Assembly: GCA_027596195.1 (NCBI GenBank)
Contig: JADGJG010000654.1
Span: 1-14,688, forward strand
Reading direction: 5' to 3'
DNA from: Podochytrium sp. JEL0797
Taxonomy: Eukaryota; Chytridiomycota; Chytridiomycetes; Chytridiales; Chytriomycetaceae
DNA: 14,688 nucleotides
The notes under the pieces were generated by a model that had not been told where the DNA came from, did not search any database, and saw only the letters and a program-made list of their open reading frames with translations. A program made the position numbers and the translations under genes. The number at the start of each line of letters is the position of its first letter. The first letter of the stretch is position 1. Positions 1 through 14,352 of the stretch are shown here, piece after piece.

Positions 1-306
1 ATGAACCCGGGCCGTCGCGACGACGCGTCTGTCCCCGAGGCTGTTCCAGAGGTCCCTGCTGTCGAAGCGCCAGTTGTCGTTGTTGCTCCAGTCGTCGAAG
101 AGCCCGTTGTTGCCGAGGCTCCTGCTACCGTCGACGAGAGTCACACGCAAGAATCCGAGGTGGACCCAGTCACCGGGGAGCCAGTCAAGAGAGCCAGATG
201 GTGTATGCAGCAGTTTTGTGCCATGATGAACCCGGGACGTCGTGACGGCGAAGATGCTGCGGCTCCACCTGCTGTTGAGGCGCCCGCTGCTCCCGCCAGA
301 GGATGA
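1..306 (+). CDS. Secreted Kex2-processed peptide precursor, 5'-truncated by the window edge
   Basis: This is the last 101 codons of a precursor whose 5' end lies outside the window. The first codon (ATG) is not a true start. It aligns with Met43 of the 143-aa precursor at 13921-14352, inside the first core peptide, and 42 + 101 gives the same full length. Visible parts are the end of core 1 (MNPG-RRD), an acidic Pro/Ala/Val/Glu spacer, a second unit KR-ARWCMQQFCAMMNPG-RRD (core at 193-237), and a tail ending APARG. Differences from the other long copy lie in the spacer and tail; the second core is identical in protein, with synonymous changes in DNA. A poly(A)-like AATAAA lies at 342-347. By family logic the product enters the secretory pathway and is cut at KR/RR by a kexin. 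A pheromone or other signalling role is inference. Confidence 0.8.
   Translation: MNPGRRDDASVPEAVPEVPAVEAPVVVVAPVVEEPVVAEAPATVDESHTQESEVDPVTGEPVKRARWCMQQFCAMMNPGRRDGEDAAAPPAVEAPAAPARG
193..237 (+). other. Predicted mature core peptide ARWCMQQFCAMMNPG (second unit of the truncated copy)
   Basis: The unit is preceded by Lys-Arg and followed by Arg-Arg-Asp. It contains a CX4C pair (C-MQQF-C). It encodes the same 15 residues as the cores at 14014-14058 and 14239-14283. Compared with 14239-14283 it has three silent third-position changes (Cys, Phe and Pro codons). Confidence 0.65.
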
Positions 307-3400: not shown

Positions 3401-6400
3401 CTTTGCTTCAGATCGTTTGGTTCGTTCAGTTTTTTTTTTCCACGCAAGCTGACTTGGATTTTTGAAGGATGCATCACAGAAACCAGCCGACCCTGTATCC
3501 GATCCAGCAATCTTCCGAGACTCGACCTTCCGAAGTGCAATCGTGTCCAAGGATAAATATCCCGCCGCCATGACGCCTCTCTCGCAAGTTGCGTCCCTTC
3601 AGGGTCTCGACGACCTGTTGACTGGTGCCAAAAAGTCCAAATTCGTTCGGATCCACGAGGCGCCTTTGGACGAGCAGCGTTACAAGGACTTGATTGCTCT
3701 TGAACCTCTGAATGTCGAACGTCGCATCCAGTATGCTGAGTCTCTGCTGCCGGATTCAATGTCTCTCAAGGAACTTTTACGCACGCACAAGGGCATCACG
3801 CCTTGCGTCAACGTGTTGGCCGAAGCTCTTCCTACAAATCGTGATAGTGAGGACTTGTGGCTGATGTATGTCGAGTTGTACATGAAGCGCGCGGGGGATC
3901 AGGACGTGAGGGACATTTTCGAACAAGGTGTTGCGTTTGTGCCTGAAAGTCTTGCGCTCTGGTGGCGCTATTTTGTGTGGGAGACGGCGTTTGAAGCGAA
4001 GGAGAAGGTGTTGAAGCGGATGTTGGACAAGTTTGGTGGAGGCGAGTGTGCGGCGATGGGTTCAGTTTTTTTTGCCCTTTTTGTCTTTGATTGTTGCAAT
4101 CGCTGACCATTTTCCTCCGTCTTGACAGATGCGCTTGTCAGATCGAGCACCGTGCTCGCTGTCGTCGTACAACTCGTGAAACTGTACGTGGGCAACTCGG
4201 ACTCTACGGATGCCGCGCGCGCCTTCATGTCGCTGTTCCTCATGACCAAAGACGTTCAAGAGCTTGCCAAGTTTTCTCCCACCACGTACACGTCGCGTTT
4301 GGCCAGTGGAACCTACCTGCCCGCCTTTGCGACCACTTGGGTGTCCACCGTTCTCAACTTTGGTGACCTCGCGCGCGCATGGCTCATTTATTTGCATCTA
4401 TTATACCACGGCACCATCCCGGACTCTGTCTTTCTGGCGTACCCAAACAACTTTTTGCTACGCGACGAGTTTTTCATGATCAAATGGGACGTTTCATCCA
4501 TCACGGCAACCTCCAAAAACACGCCGAGCGGGACCGAAATGACGTGGTTCAAGCAAATGTTCCAAAACTGCGTGTCGAGCTGGAGACTCGCGATCCCCGC
4601 CTCCGCATCCGATACCGAATCCCCACGCCGAGCCGAGTTTTTGGTTGCGTTCCTTGCCATTATCAAAAACTTGCATGCGTGTTTGGAGGTGACGAGCAGT
4701 GCGAAGCGCGTGTGGGTCAAGATTTGGGAGAGTGTGCGTCGGGTTTTGGAGGCGGGGGAGGAGGATGGGTTTTTGCTTGTGGATGGGTGGAAAGGGTTGG
4801 AAGTGCGCGGGGGCCAGTTTGCGGTTGTGAATCGACGCGTGAAGGAGTTGTTGAGGAACTCGAGTGGACCGAGTATGGCGCCGACGTGTGCTGTGGATGC
4901 GGTTGTGATGTTGGTGAATTCGATTCGGATGTGTTTTGAGGGGTTGGAGCCGGTGAGTTTTCTTTTTGCGAATGATTTTTCGGTTGGTTGGATTTATGCG
5001 CTGACGCCTGGGAACAGGTGAAATTCCCGAACCTTGCCAATATCCCTGTTGCGATTGAAGAGACTTTGGTGCTGTACGAGAAAGCGCTGTCCATCTCCAC
5101 GAAGCTCCAGACGCCGGACCTCCTCGCGCCCTTCAAACAAAGCGAGCTGACGAGCAACGTGTTTGTCTGGCTCAATTATCTCCTTCTGTCGAGCATCCAG
5201 TTCAGCGAAACTCCCGTCGACGTGAACATCCGTTCGCTCTTGGACGAATCCTTCAAACGATGCGCCTCGAAACACGAGCGATACTTTTTGTGGCGCGAGT
5301 TGGTTCAGGTTGCCGTGCGGGGGAGGAAAGTTGGGGAATGGAACGCGGGTGTGGCGGAGTTGGAGGAGGCGATGGATGATTTGGGGGTGGTGGGTGTGAA
5401 TCCTGTTCAGAGGACGAGAGGGGAGGGGGGTGCTGAGTTTTGTAGGCTTGTGGGTGTTGTTGAGAGTCATGATGCTGTGCGGTTGATTCGGCTCGTGTTG
5501 GATGGGTTGCAGGGTGGTGGGGAGCGTGTTCGGGTCGTGGATTTGCTTTATAAGTCCAGGGCGGACTTGGTGGATCAGTGCCCAGAGTGAGTTTATTTTG
5601 CTGCTCGCTCGTGTTGTGTGGCTTGCTGATTTTTTATTCGTTGCAGACTGGCCAAGTTATATTTCGAATCGAATTCGATCAAGGTAGGAAAAGACCGCAT
5701 GCTCGCGTGCTTGAAACGAGACCCAACCTCCAAATTCTTGTGGAAACTGTAAGCTGTTGTTTGACATTTGTCATATCTTGAAATTGGGTTTTTGTGTTTT
5801 GGGGGACAGGTTGCACTCGATTGAGCAGTTGGGCGGGTTGTTTGGGACCGTTGAAAATGTCAAGAAGCTCACTGAACGGGCGGCCGAGTTTTTGAGTCCT
5901 CTGGATATCCGAAATGTATGTTCAGGTTTTTTGGTGTGGTATGACTCATGAAGGAAATTCAAGGTCTTTGCGAACACGAATGCGGCAAGTAAACGGCGGC
6001 AGTAGTTGCCATCCCCAATCATGCATGTTGTAAGTGTTGGTTTCTGCTTTTTTCTTCTTGTGTGGTTGAAGTAGATTCAACGATCGCTGGCGACTGGGAC
6101 GCGTTTCGCTAATCGGCTACCGAGCAAACCATTCCTCCCCCATTCTTTCTTTCTCCCATTTCTCACTGTGATGTTAACGTGACTCTCGCACCGGTATGTG
6201 CTTGTTTTTTTTTGCGTTGCGCGCGTTTTTTTTGATTTGCTAAATTTTGGTTCGGTTCTTCCCAAGTTCTTGGTGAACCTCCCTCCCTTTCCCCCTCTAC
6301 CCCTTCCGATGTAACTAGGTATCATATCTTTGTCCGTTATTCGTTTGGTTGGCTTCGGTTTGTATTTCTTGTCTTTTTTGTGCCCCCCTCTTCCCGTTTG

Positions 6401-10258: not shown

Positions 10259-10799
10259 ATGGAAATCGATCCCCAGCCAACACCGCCAACACCCGTCGAG
10301 ACAACAAGCAGTGCAGATGAACGACGGCTAATTCTCGAACTTGAGTTTGTGCAGTGCCTTGCGAACCCAAAGTATCTGCAGTGTGCGTAAGCATCCTTAG
10401 GAAATTCGGAGTTGTTGACCAGGCACAACAGTCCTCGCACAGCACGGATACCTCGCGGACCCTGAGTTCATCAACTACCTCGCATATCTGCAGTACTTTC
10501 TGGAGCCCGAGTACGCACAGCTCGTGGTGTATCCGTACGGCCTCGAGATGCTTGTTCTGCTGCAGCACGAGGGGTTCCGCCGCAGCGTGGCCCTGGAGGC
10601 AACAGTGCAGCTGATCCACCAGAAGGAGTTCTACCACTGGCAGCACTGGCGCCAGAACGAGCGGCGCGTCGTGTTTCGCCAGCAGGAGGAGCTGGGCGGG
10701 TCGGCTCCCGCATTATCGGTGGAGGAGTTGCGGCGGATGTTTGCGGGTGGAAACGATGCAGTTGAGGCAAAGAAGGAAGAAGGACGCGTTGGTGAATAA
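10259..10799 (+). CDS. MED31: Mediator complex subunit 31 (Soh1)
   Basis: Exons 10259-10382 and 10432-10799 with a 49-nt intron (GTGCGT..CAACAG); 163 aa, slightly longer than the ~130 aa usual for the family. The conserved core is plain: LELEFVQCLANPKYLQ, then FLAQHGYLADPEFINYLAY, FLEPEYAQLVVYPYGLEML, HEGFRRSV and QIIHQ-like LIHQKEFYHWQHW. The intron splits the phenylalanine of YLQ-F-LAQ, and this is the only splice choice that restores the family sequence. MED31 sits in the Mediator middle module in the nucleus and helps RNA polymerase II initiation. An acidic/Gln/Glu tail of ~45 residues is an extension. The TAA stop lies inside an AATAAA at 10795-10800. It is transcribed divergently from the arrestin gene. 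Confidence 0.95.
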
Positions 10800-11013: not shown

Positions 11014-11310
11014 GACGGAGTCGTGTCGAGGAGTGTTGTTTTGGGTGGGTTATCTCGCTCGAGAGTGAAAGAAAAACGGAGACGTGAACCTCGTTTGTTT
11101 GCGATTCGCTACTGTGAGGATTCGTGTCTCGCTTCAAAAAGAAAGTCAATGGCTCGAGAAGGAGTATGAAGATGAATTATCGCAGGGACTCGTTACTCGA
11201 AACAGAAGAATTGATCGGCCGCAGTTTCAATATATAATTTGTTCGCGCACCCTCGAGGCTGGTAACTATTTTTTCAGCCAATCACAGCTGGTATCCATTG
11301 ACCCGTTGGC
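11014..11310 (+). repeat. Duplicated block, copy A: decayed 3' end of membrane-protein gene plus peptide-gene upstream region
   Basis: This matches 13414-13800 with indels. Shared segments include ATGGCTCGAGAAGGAG, GAAGATGAATT, GAAGAATTGATCGG, GCGCACCCTCG, TTTTTTCAGCCAATCACA and CCATTGACCC. Its first ~120 bp still read RREPRLFAIRYCEDS on the + strand, matching RREPPSFAIRYREDS at the C-terminus of the membrane protein at 12604-13597. No transmembrane-coding sequence of that gene remains directly upstream of it, so it is a fragment. Confidence 0.75.
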
Positions 11311-11566
11311 TTTTGATGAAGGCTCGCAAAGATGTGGATATTTGTGGGCTCAGAGAGGCAACGGAGACTAAATTGACGGGCGAGAGACAGGACAGAGGGT
11401 GCTTAAATCACGAGCCATAGTGACACTCGAATCTCCTCCGCGTGTGAGTCCATGAGACGTGGCTTGTAGCATGCAATTGGGGTTCCTACCACATTTCTAA
11501 CACATTTCGGCGTTTCCATTCCATGGGCCCGGATGGCAGGGCCGCTGAACAACACTATCGGACAAA
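11311..11566. other. Segment unique to copy A; no gene recognised
   Basis: This sequence has no counterpart in the other copy. Together with the inverted fragment and its right flank it makes about 600 bp inserted between the CCAAT-bearing block and the TATA box of the 12061 peptide gene. I see no long ORF with credible content and no terminal repeats. Confidence 0.4.
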
Positions 11567-11690
11567 TACGGCGAATGCAGAATGCAATGAGGGCAACGCA
11601 TTGGATCACGTAGATGCGGTTGAGGTGATTTGCCATTCGTCGGGAAGTTGGGGCATGGCCCAATACTTAAAGTGGTCCATTCGGCACCCC
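11567..11690 (-). pseudogene. Inverted, frameshifted fragment of the membrane-protein gene
   Basis: Read on the - strand, this matches 12670-12797 of the membrane-protein gene: Met-Asp-His-Phe-Lys-Tyr-Trp and LPDEWQI are kept (ATG at 11680-11678). One A is lost in AAATCAACCTCAACC, which shifts the frame. The match resumes through the codons for IQCVALIAFCI in another frame and then ends. It cannot make the full protein. Its orientation is opposite to the intact gene and to the 3' fragment at 11014-11310, so the parent copy was broken and rearranged. Confidence 0.8.
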
Positions 11691-12060: not shown

Positions 12061-12264
12061 ATGAAATTCTCCAACGTCCTCCTCCTTGCCTCCCTCGTCT
12101 TGGCCGCCCCCGCCCCCACTGACAAATCCACCGGCGAAGTTTTCCAAAAGAGAGGCGGGGAGCGATGCAGGCCAGGATACTGCGGCAAGCCCCCCAGACG
12201 TGACGGCGAAGATGTTGCGGCTCCACCTGCTGTTCAGGCCCCCGTTGCACACGCCAGAGGATGA
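12061..12264 (+). CDS. Secreted Kex2-processed peptide precursor, single divergent core
   Basis: 67 aa, no intron. MKFSNVLLLASLVLAAPAP is a signal peptide (hydrophobic ~5-16), followed by a short pro-segment ending in QKR (residues 29-31). The predicted core is GGERCRPGYCGKPP (32-45), then RRDGED and an AAPPAVQAPVAHARG tail. The signal and pro-region are nearly identical to the 143-aa paralog, and the tail matches that paralog's second unit (RRDGED, not RRDDAS). So the two-unit layout seems to have collapsed to one unit, taking the left flank of unit 1 and the right flank of unit 2. The core keeps only the CX4C spacing with an aromatic before the second Cys. It lacks the Gly before RR, so it would not be amidated. 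It probably acts outside the cell. Pheromone, other signal or defence peptide cannot be told apart from sequence. Confidence 0.8.
   Translation: MKFSNVLLLASLVLAAPAPTDKSTGEVFQKRGGERCRPGYCGKPPRRDGEDVAAPPAVQAPVAHARG
12154..12195 (+). other. Predicted mature core peptide GGERCRPGYCGKPP
   Basis: The core lies between Lys-Arg and Arg-Arg. Cys36 and Cys41 of the precursor form a CX4C pair that could make a small disulfide loop. It is basic and Gly/Pro-rich, unlike the Met/Gln-rich core of the long precursors. Confidence 0.55.
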
Positions 12265-12603: not shown

Positions 12604-13597
12604 ATGGGCCTTCCTCCAACATACTACCTAAGATCACTCTGCATCCGCCCAAAAAATATCACCGAACCTGCCGTGCGAATGGACCTCTTCAAGTATTGGG
12701 CCTTGCCCCACCTTCCAGACGAATGGCAAATCAACCTCAACCGCATCTACTTTATCCAATGCGTTGCCCTCATTGCATTCTGCATTCTCCGCCGTAAAGG
12801 CAGGGAGGGCAAGATTGGAAGCGGCAGTCGATGGGTGCCTTGCCCTGATGTGCCTGATCACTGGATTATCAAATCGTTTCAAGGGATGCTCTGGGGCCAT
12901 ATCATTTATTACCTCCTGGAAGTGAACTTCAGCGCCATGTGGTCCATATACACAATCGTTGGTAAGACAACCCAACATTTGATTGAACCGAATTTCTTCT
13001 GACTCGCCGTCCAACAGCCATGCACCATTTCTTTGGCATTCTCGTATCACTCGGCATCATTTTTCAACCCACCATGATCTCTGTCCTAACGGCAACGCCT
13101 TATTTCATACACATTGTCCTGTGGGCGTTCAACCTCCACTCGCTCGAAATCCTTTTCATCTACAACACGAGTCTCCTCGTGGTAGCCAGTTTCATTTACT
13201 TTACAAGCGTCGCATTGGATCCACAAGCACGACCCGTTCGATACGGCGCCACAGTGTGTCTCATGTGTGTGAGCTTGTTTTTCACAAACTACTTTCAGTA
13301 TTGCTACACGTTTGTGGGGACGGTTTGCGTCACTGTCGACCCAGTATGGTTGATGGGACTCGGTGGAGACGAGGTGGGGTTGCACACGGAGGAGTGGGAA
13401 GGAAGCACGTTTGGGACGGGGTCGTATCGCGGGCGTTGTTTTGGGTTGTGTTGTGGTGGGTTCTGTGGGTGGGTGGGTTGACGCTCTCTGCGCTGTGGGT
13501 GAAAGAAGGGTGGAGACGAGAGCCTCCTTCGTTTGCGATTCGGTATCGTGAGGATTCGTTGGATTGTGAAGCTGCGCTGATTGGGAAGGACGAGTGA
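12604..13597 (+). CDS. Multi-pass membrane protein, family not certain (TLC-like features)
   Basis: Best model: exons 12604-12961, 13018-13343, 13406-13597; 291 aa. The first intron (GTAAGA..CAACAG, 56 nt) is clear. The second (GTATGG..GGAAG, 62 nt) is inferred because the reading frame must shift to reach the C-terminus RREPPSFAIRYREDS, a stretch that is conserved in the decayed copy at 11014. About six hydrophobic spans are visible: YFIQCVALIAFCIL; MLWGHIIYYLLEV; a span around the MHHFFGIL motif; PYFIHIVLWAF; TSLLVVASFIYF; LFWVVLWWVLWVGGLTL. The paired histidines after a membrane span recall TLC-domain (LAG1/TRAM) proteins, but I do not claim that family. ATG at 12679 (MDLFKYW) is an alternative start and is the one kept in the inverted pseudogene. 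Without the second intron the frame stops at 13481. Confidence 0.6.
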
Positions 13598-13800: not shown

Positions 13801-13920
13801 ATTGGAGTCCTCCTTGTTGCACAGTCTGTAATCAATGGTTGCTCCAAAAAGGGGTATAAAGCGCGACACCCTTCCCCTCCCAACCATCACAACCAAAAAC
13901 TCCACCACTCTCTGCCAAAG
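13764..13920 (+). promoter_or_regulatory. CCAAT + TATA promoter and leader of the 143-aa peptide gene
   Basis: CAGCCAATCACAC (CCAAT at 13764-13768) is followed by GGGGTATAAAGCGCGAC (TATAAA at 13855-13860), 66 bp before the ATG. A C/A-rich leader with few G residues ends CCAAAG-ATG. The TATA-to-ATG segment is conserved with the 12061 gene. This suggests strong, shared control of both peptide genes. Confidence 0.7.
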
Positions 13921-14352
13921 ATGAAATTCACCAACGTCCTCCTCCTTGCCTCCCTCGCCTTGGCCGCCCCCGCCCCCATCGACAAATCCACAGGCGAAGT
14001 GGTCCAAAAGAGAGCCAGGTGGTGCATGCAGCAATTCTGCGCCATGATGAACCCGGGCCGTCGCGACGACGCGTCCATCCCCGAGGCTGTTCCAGAGCTC
14101 CCCGCCATCGAAGCACCAGCTGCTGTTGTTGCTCCAGTCGTCGAAGAGCCCGCTGCTGTCGAGACTCCTGCTACCGTGGACGAGAGTGTCGCGCCAGAAT
14201 CAGAGGTGGACCCAGTGACTGGAGAGCCAGTCAAGAGAGCCAGATGGTGCATGCAGCAGTTCTGTGCCATGATGAACCCAGGACGTCGTGACGGTGAAGA
14301 CGTTGAGGCTCCACCTGCTGTTCAGGCGCCTGCTGCTCCCGCCAGAGGATAA
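13921..14352 (+). CDS. Secreted Kex2-processed repeat precursor with two identical CX4C cores (pheromone-like)
   Basis: 143 aa, no intron. Residues 1-16 (MKFTNVLLLASLALA) are a signal peptide, with likely cleavage before APAP. A pro-segment ends in QKR (29-31). Core 1 ARWCMQQFCAMMNPG (32-46) is followed by RRD. An acidic Pro/Ala/Val/Glu spacer (50-104) ends GEPVKR, then comes an identical core 2 (107-121), RRDGED and a tail ending APARG. The layout is that of fungal alpha-factor-type pheromone precursors and other KEPs: secretion, kexin cleavage at KR and RR, then release. The WC...C pattern recalls ascomycete alpha pheromones (WCxxxGxxCW), but the loop here is four residues, not six, and the closing W is absent. 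Gly before RR could allow C-terminal amidation if the host has such an enzyme. Target receptor unknown; none is encoded here. Confidence 0.85.
   Translation: MKFTNVLLLASLALAAPAPIDKSTGEVVQKRARWCMQQFCAMMNPGRRDDASIPEAVPELPAIEAPAAVVAPVVEEPAAVETPATVDESVAPESEVDPVTGEPVKRARWCMQQFCAMMNPGRRDGEDVEAPPAVQAPAAPARG
14014..14058 (+). other. Predicted mature core peptide ARWCMQQFCAMMNPG, unit 1
   Basis: Flanked by KR and RRDD. It differs from unit 2 at five third codon positions (Arg, Gln, Cys, Pro, Gly), all silent. Confidence 0.7.
14239..14283 (+). other. Predicted mature core peptide ARWCMQQFCAMMNPG, unit 2
   Basis: Flanked by VKR and RRDGED. The protein sequence is identical to unit 1 and to the core at 193-237. 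The codons differ only silently. Confidence 0.7.

Follow-up and report, generated by a model that had tools for sequence, protein, structure and literature searches.

A multicopy precursor gene with conserved CX4C cores and a possible peptide self-signal in the chytrid Podochytrium sp. JEL0797

Introduction

What is made from a chytrid reading frame in which two identical short peptides, each framed by dibasic sites, follow a signal-peptide-like start? Chytrid cell-to-cell signalling is little known at the gene level. According to the available excerpts, no mating-type genes were found in the chytrids analysed and their sexual cycle was left open (PMC6572847), and a review cites pheromone responses in chytrids (PMC10643281). 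Among the open PubMed Central papers matched, titles and abstract starts (supplements excluded) named no peptide signal of a true chytrid together with its gene. The peptides described here were likewise unnamed in the titles and abstract starts of matching open papers (partly the best 20 of 58; supplements excluded). A defined peptide in a named strain would offer a handle for zoospore tests and receptor finding.

The window analysed here is the whole of contig C617 (14,688 nucleotides) in the 24.4 Mb genome of Podochytrium sp. JEL0797 (Chytridiomycota, Chytriomycetaceae). The original prediction, made from the sequence of this window, had placed a precursor of a secreted, pheromone-like peptide at 13921-14352.

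Results

Anatomy of the precursor

Translation of the window gives a 143-aa precursor from the open reading frame at 13921-14352 on the forward strand, with the same 15-residue protein sequence encoded at 14014-14058 and 14239-14283. Each core is directly preceded by KR and directly followed by RR-D, giving the unit KR-ARWCMQQFCAMMNPG-RR. On re-reading, the reading frame, the signal-peptide-like start (judged by eye), the KR-core-RR units and the identical cores of the original prediction were all present, as were the five silent differences it had counted between the cores (AGG/AGA, CAA/CAG, TGC/TGT, CCG/CCA and GGC/GGA over 45 bases). The RR after the two cores contributes a sixth silent change. 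The parts of the gene are as follows.

13853..13867, +, core promoter element GGTATAAAGCGCGAC, 5' of the precursor, from an alignment of upstream regions
13921..13965, +, signal-peptide-like start MKFTNVLLLASLALA, residues 1-15, judged by eye
13966..14013, +, pro-region APAPIDKSTGEVVQKR, ending with the first Kex2-type site, KR
14014..14058, +, core unit 1, ARWCMQQFCAMMNPG (CX4C)
14059..14064, +, RR following core 1
14065..14232, +, acidic spacer rich in Ala, Val, Pro and Glu, last residues DPVTGEPV; pN/pS 0.38
14233..14238, +, KR preceding core 2
14239..14283, +, core unit 2, ARWCMQQFCAMMNPG; no replacement differences across five genes compared
14284..14289, +, RR following core 2
14290..14352, +, variable C-terminal tail and stop

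All five aligned upstream regions of the family have the same TATA element, GGTATAAAG.GCG.C. With the 143-aa precursor, a Pfam search at E<=1 returned three matches that stay under their cut-offs and are regarded as chance. The strongest is EF_HAND_1_PLCG (E 0.0013; 19.1 bits, cut-off 23.9), which falls on core 2, at residues 107-121. No NCBIfam profile matched the precursor, and no PDB chain matched core 2 with the tail at E<=10.

A gene family within one genome

A search of the fungus's own genome with the precursor gave at least ten matches at E<=10 and revealed a family of at least seven gene copies. Three lie in the window (1-306, 12061-12264, which was matched twice, and 13921-14352; hereafter C617a, C617b and C617c), one on contig C924, two on C179 and one on C959. 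Contig C263 carries a family remnant (E 0.12), and a match on C890 (E 0.8) is chance-like. The predicted locus is thus real, but the family reaches well past it.

1..306, +, paralogue C617a; the contig end cuts inside core 1; core 2 (193-237) has the same protein sequence
12061..12264, +, paralogue C617b, 67 aa, with a single unit and a different CX4C core, GGERCRPGYCGKPP-RR

Frames are intact in C617b, C617c, C924, C179a and C179b. The C959 copy is degenerate, with a stop within its second unit and no Cys pair at CX4C spacing in unit 1. The two paralogues on C179, a contig of 79,293 bases, are deposited as HDU98_005770 and HDU98_005766 and annotated as hypothetical proteins. A precursor gene on C179 is adjoined by P0007 (L010 9168-9713, minus strand), which encodes a secreted-looking protein rich in Tyr, Lys and Glu. 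In one protein-database search, which covered candidates of about 79-250 aa, no relative outside the genome was found at E<=10: four of the 2203 candidates matched, all four from Podochytrium sp. JEL0797.

The units of the family differ in constancy. Unit 2 is invariant in the five genes compared, whereas unit-1 or single units are variable, reading SKWCAQQFCAMMNPG in unit 1 of C924 and NVYCVTESCREGMRKMFS in unit 1 of C179b. The CX4C spacing of the Cys residues is retained in all three diverged cores (SKWCAQQFCAMMNPG, NVYCVTESCREGMRKMFS and GGERCRPGYCGKPP), and the residues after KR across units are ARW, SKW, NVY or GGE. This pattern of a constant unit 2 beside variable unit-1 and single units suggests that one constant peptide, together with variants, may be released from the family's precursors.

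Selection on the core peptide

Eight ARW/SKW-type units from five genes were compared, a count that does not take in unit 1 of C179b and the cores of C617b and C959, which are different, or unit 1 of C617a, which is cut. The protein sequence is identical in seven of the eight complete ARW/SKW-type units, and differs in C179b unit 1 and C617b, which are also complete. Summed over all pairs, the seven identical cores show 77 silent differences and none that replaces a residue (pS 0.55, pN 0), and all eight units have 106 silent and 28 replacement differences. Since pairwise differences are not independent, sites were also counted: the seven identical cores, from five genes, contain 8 variable silent sites with at least 9 changes, and zero replacement sites. 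Nine unconstrained changes would all be silent with a probability between 3e-8 and 1e-6, depending on the transition weight (1 to 8).

Across the five genes, core 2 has a pS of 0.45 and a pN of 0, and the spacer has the pN/pS of 0.38 given above. The ratio is 0.40 for the tail (0.45 without C179b), 0.31 for the signal and pro-region (0.18 without C179b) and 0.72 for core 1 (0.22 without C179b), C617a contributing neither a signal region nor the greater part of core 1. The claim of the original prediction that selection preserves the core peptide is borne out by the silent-only change in seven cores, with a pN of 0 against a pN/pS of about 0.4 in spacer and tail. These values support the core as the selected part of the precursor, with spacers and tails changing more freely. 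The further claim that paralogues differ at silent sites only holds for the ARW-type cores but not for C924 unit 1, C179b unit 1 or the core at 12061, all changed, nor for the degenerate C959; to that extent the prediction overstated conservation.

Two silent differences separate the units themselves. All three unit-1 sequences are silently distinct from all five unit-2 sequences at two codons, that of the second Cys and that of the second Arg in RR. These fixed differences indicate that the two units have had separate histories and that their protein identity is not due to recent homogenisation.

Processing enzymes

The original prediction had proposed looking for kexin; a genome profile search found it encoded on contig C967 as a peptidase S8 domain with a P-domain (P_proprotein). 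Contig C90 holds more P-domain stretches and an S8 pro-domain. With KR before and RR after both cores and a kexin in the genome, the Kex2-type layout stands, secretion being apparent only.

A Gly lies immediately before RR in all eight ARW/SKW-type units, with the codons GGC, GGA and GGT all used; C617b and C179b unit 1 have no Gly before the dibasic site. In animals, a Gly at this position is the classical amidation signal. One PF01082 stretch (copper type II monooxygenase, PHM/DBH-like) was found on C542 at 35.8 bits against a cut-off of 30. Nearby pieces of PF03712 (C-domain) are below cut-off, and the reading frames of the gene (L018 4864-6048) do not join cleanly by eye. When joined, the pieces had no hit at E<=0.001 in a set of 2865 candidate proteins, and the stretch is therefore neither placed among PHM nor established as intact. 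NHL repeats, the fold of the amidating lyase (PAL), were not found over cut-off in the genome. Amidation at the Gly that precedes RR can be regarded only as a weak lead. As an observation in its own right, a PHM/DBH-like copper type II monooxygenase gene here occurs in a fungus.

A membrane-protein gene between precursors

12679..13481, +, HDU98_009912 (P0005), two exons, several predicted membrane spans; sits between two precursor genes

Outside the genome, the one relative of HDU98_009912 at E<=1 is P0006 from Entophlyctis luteolus, with 40% identity. Neither protein gave a Pfam, NCBIfam or PDB match, part of this search being made with P0006 only. No close paralogue was found in the genome, where two stretches of C437 matched at E 0.075 and 0.51; one of these looks unrelated on inspection by eye. 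Seven long helices are seen in the AlphaFold model of P0006, but its mean pLDDT of 37 is too low to draw a conclusion from, and the best Foldseek match to it has an E of 2.4. A TLC (lipid-type) fold was considered for HDU98_009912 and rejected, the profile score not exceeding shuffled controls in three of four stretches; the excess in the fourth was marginal (a score of 6.98, where the highest of 20 shuffles reached 6.69). In the flanking stretches examined beside the C924, C179 and C959 precursors, there was no copy of the gene. This absence, together with the lack of a second good match in the genome, weakens a functional tie to the peptide. The idea of HDU98_009912 as an adjacent receptor was accordingly set aside, its link to the peptide being putative.

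Parts of HDU98_009912 and its 3' flank recur at 11065-11683 as short direct and inverted copies, which point to local duplication and rearrangement. The direct copy repeats 13499-13559, a stretch 3' of where the deposited gene stops (13481), and the 3' end of the deposited gene may therefore be incorrect. Elsewhere in the window are a gene for Mediator subunit 31 that is interrupted by an intron (10259-10796; Med31, PF05669; first piece above cut-off, second below) and a HAT-repeat protein resembling the PRP39 N-terminus (3570-4103; PF23240).

Receptor repertoire

The original prediction had also pointed to Ste2/Ste3-type receptors. The STE2 (PF02116) and STE3 profiles had no match in the genome, nor in any control genome, so that this absence alone says little. 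It agrees with excerpts of two papers, one reporting that Chytridiomycota lack reliable Ste2, Ste3 or Git3 and have animal-like receptors instead (PMC3251606), the other that Ste2 is restricted to Ascomycota (PMC12842992). Cut-offs were exceeded by 14 of the 20 rhodopsin-type (7tm_1) stretches listed and by 43 of the 49 glutamate-type (7tm_3) stretches listed, stretches not being gene counts; among 14 control genomes, one matched per family, below cut-off. Clusters of glutamate-type stretches lie on contigs C201, C212 and C368. A weak rhodopsin-type stretch with one stop lies at C179:54853-55458 (25.1 bits, below cut-off), about 8 kb from a precursor gene.

Discussion

We favour, with a confidence slightly above even, the reading that 13921-14352 encodes a Kex2-processed precursor of a probably disulfide-looped, diffusible self-signal. 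The N-terminal start would direct the prepro-protein to the secretory pathway, where kexin would cleave after KR and RR and a carboxypeptidase would remove RR. Two copies of ARWCMQQFCAMMNPG would thereby be freed, probably ringed by a disulfide across the CX4C motif. The calculated [M+H]+ of this peptide is 1773.715 in linear form and 1771.699 with the disulfide; for an amide lacking the Gly it would be 1715.710 reduced and 1713.694 with the disulfide. The peptide would act as a diffusible signal to cells of the same fungus, its receptor most likely being among the fungus's many 7TM proteins. Mating, zoospore attraction or settlement, and density sensing are candidate behaviours under its control. 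Counting for a self-signal are the frozen cores, the fixed silent differences between units 1 and 2, the shared TATA element, the kexin, the kept CX4C and the plentiful receptors. Counting against it are the divergence of unit-1 cores, which also fits an effector or toxin, the degenerate C959 copy, and the finding of no relative in another species among proteins of about 79-250 aa.

An effector or antimicrobial peptide, secreted against a host, prey or competitor, with the gene copies raising the dose and unit 1 diversifying, is possible but doubtful. The variable unit-1 cores (SKWC..., NVYC..., GGERC...) are what such a role would predict. Fungi are known to have KEP-derived effectors as well as a cytolytic peptide (PMC7329392, excerpt), and several species of Podochytrium are recorded from diatoms (PMC10643281, excerpt). 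However, seven cores are frozen in protein sequence, which is unexpected for arms-race peptides, and ARWCMQQFCAMMNPG contains one Arg but lacks Lys; the available part of PMC7537106 does not give the lifestyle of JEL0797.

An animal-style hormone is unlikely. The peptide would in that case be disulfide-ringed, amidated at the Gly before RR, and sensed as a mating or zoospore signal by the fungus's own rhodopsin- or glutamate-type receptor, possibly HDU98_009912.

Slightly less probable again is a surface or structural peptide acting without a receptor, as Rep1 of Ustilago maydis does. Surface-active peptides do occur among KEPs (PMC7329392, excerpt), but each precursor here has just one or two small cores, with a strictly kept sequence and a Cys pair.

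It is very unlikely that the core is not the product and that a dying gene family has been retained by chance. The stop in C959 and the mere remnant on C263 would fit decay, but the silent-only change in seven cores (at the probability given above), the five intact frames and the common promoter element argue against it. A ustiloxin-type RiPP cyclised by UstYa enzymes is hardly credible: a signal peptide with repeated cores between Kex2 sites is a layout that both share (PMC7329392, excerpt), but the ARW-type cores have no Tyr. UstYa (PF11807, DUF3328) gave a single stretch of 17.1 bits against a cut-off of 25, a result that says little about absence, as no control genome matched.

Among known systems, the self-signal precursor that we favour can be set beside four. 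Animal neuropeptide precursors of the oxytocin/vasopressin kind have a CX4C ring, a short tail and a Gly before the dibasic site. The likeness lies in the layout, and the corresponding Pfam domain did not match the precursor. Ustiloxin-type RiPPs share the repeated cores between Kex2 sites and differ in the features named above. The alpha-type pheromone precursors of Ascomycota share with the chytrid gene a secretory start (by eye), KR sites, short repeated cores and a disposable backbone. Some alpha pheromones contain two Cys, and MF(ALPHA)2 likewise has two repeats (PMC6339444, excerpt). Alpha pheromones differ, however, in having STE13-type XA/XP dipeptides, of which there are none after KR here, and the chytrid precursor differs from them in its RR after every core, its long spacer and its lack of a sequence match; the MF_alpha Pfam domain had no match on it at E<=1. 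Since these alpha-pheromone features fail, we do not class the precursor among the alpha pheromones. The layout of alpha-pheromone precursors and KEPs that the original prediction drew on is similar, but it comes with no MF_alpha domain, no outside relative among proteins of about 79-250 aa and no STE13 dipeptides.

Kex2-processed repeat proteins (KEPs) share with the chytrid precursor a secretory start (by eye) and cores that recur between sites of the Kex2 type. Such proteins are frequent in fungi, most of them being confined to one genus, with 9.37 per strain in Chytridiomycota (PMC7329392, excerpt). The chytrid genes read here have one or two units each, whereas the pipeline of one KEP survey demanded at least three repeats (PMC6339444, excerpt), and a two-unit precursor would therefore be missed there. 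Together, these comparisons indicate that the precursor works like a KEP or alpha-type precursor and represents, within that broad class, a new orphan family.
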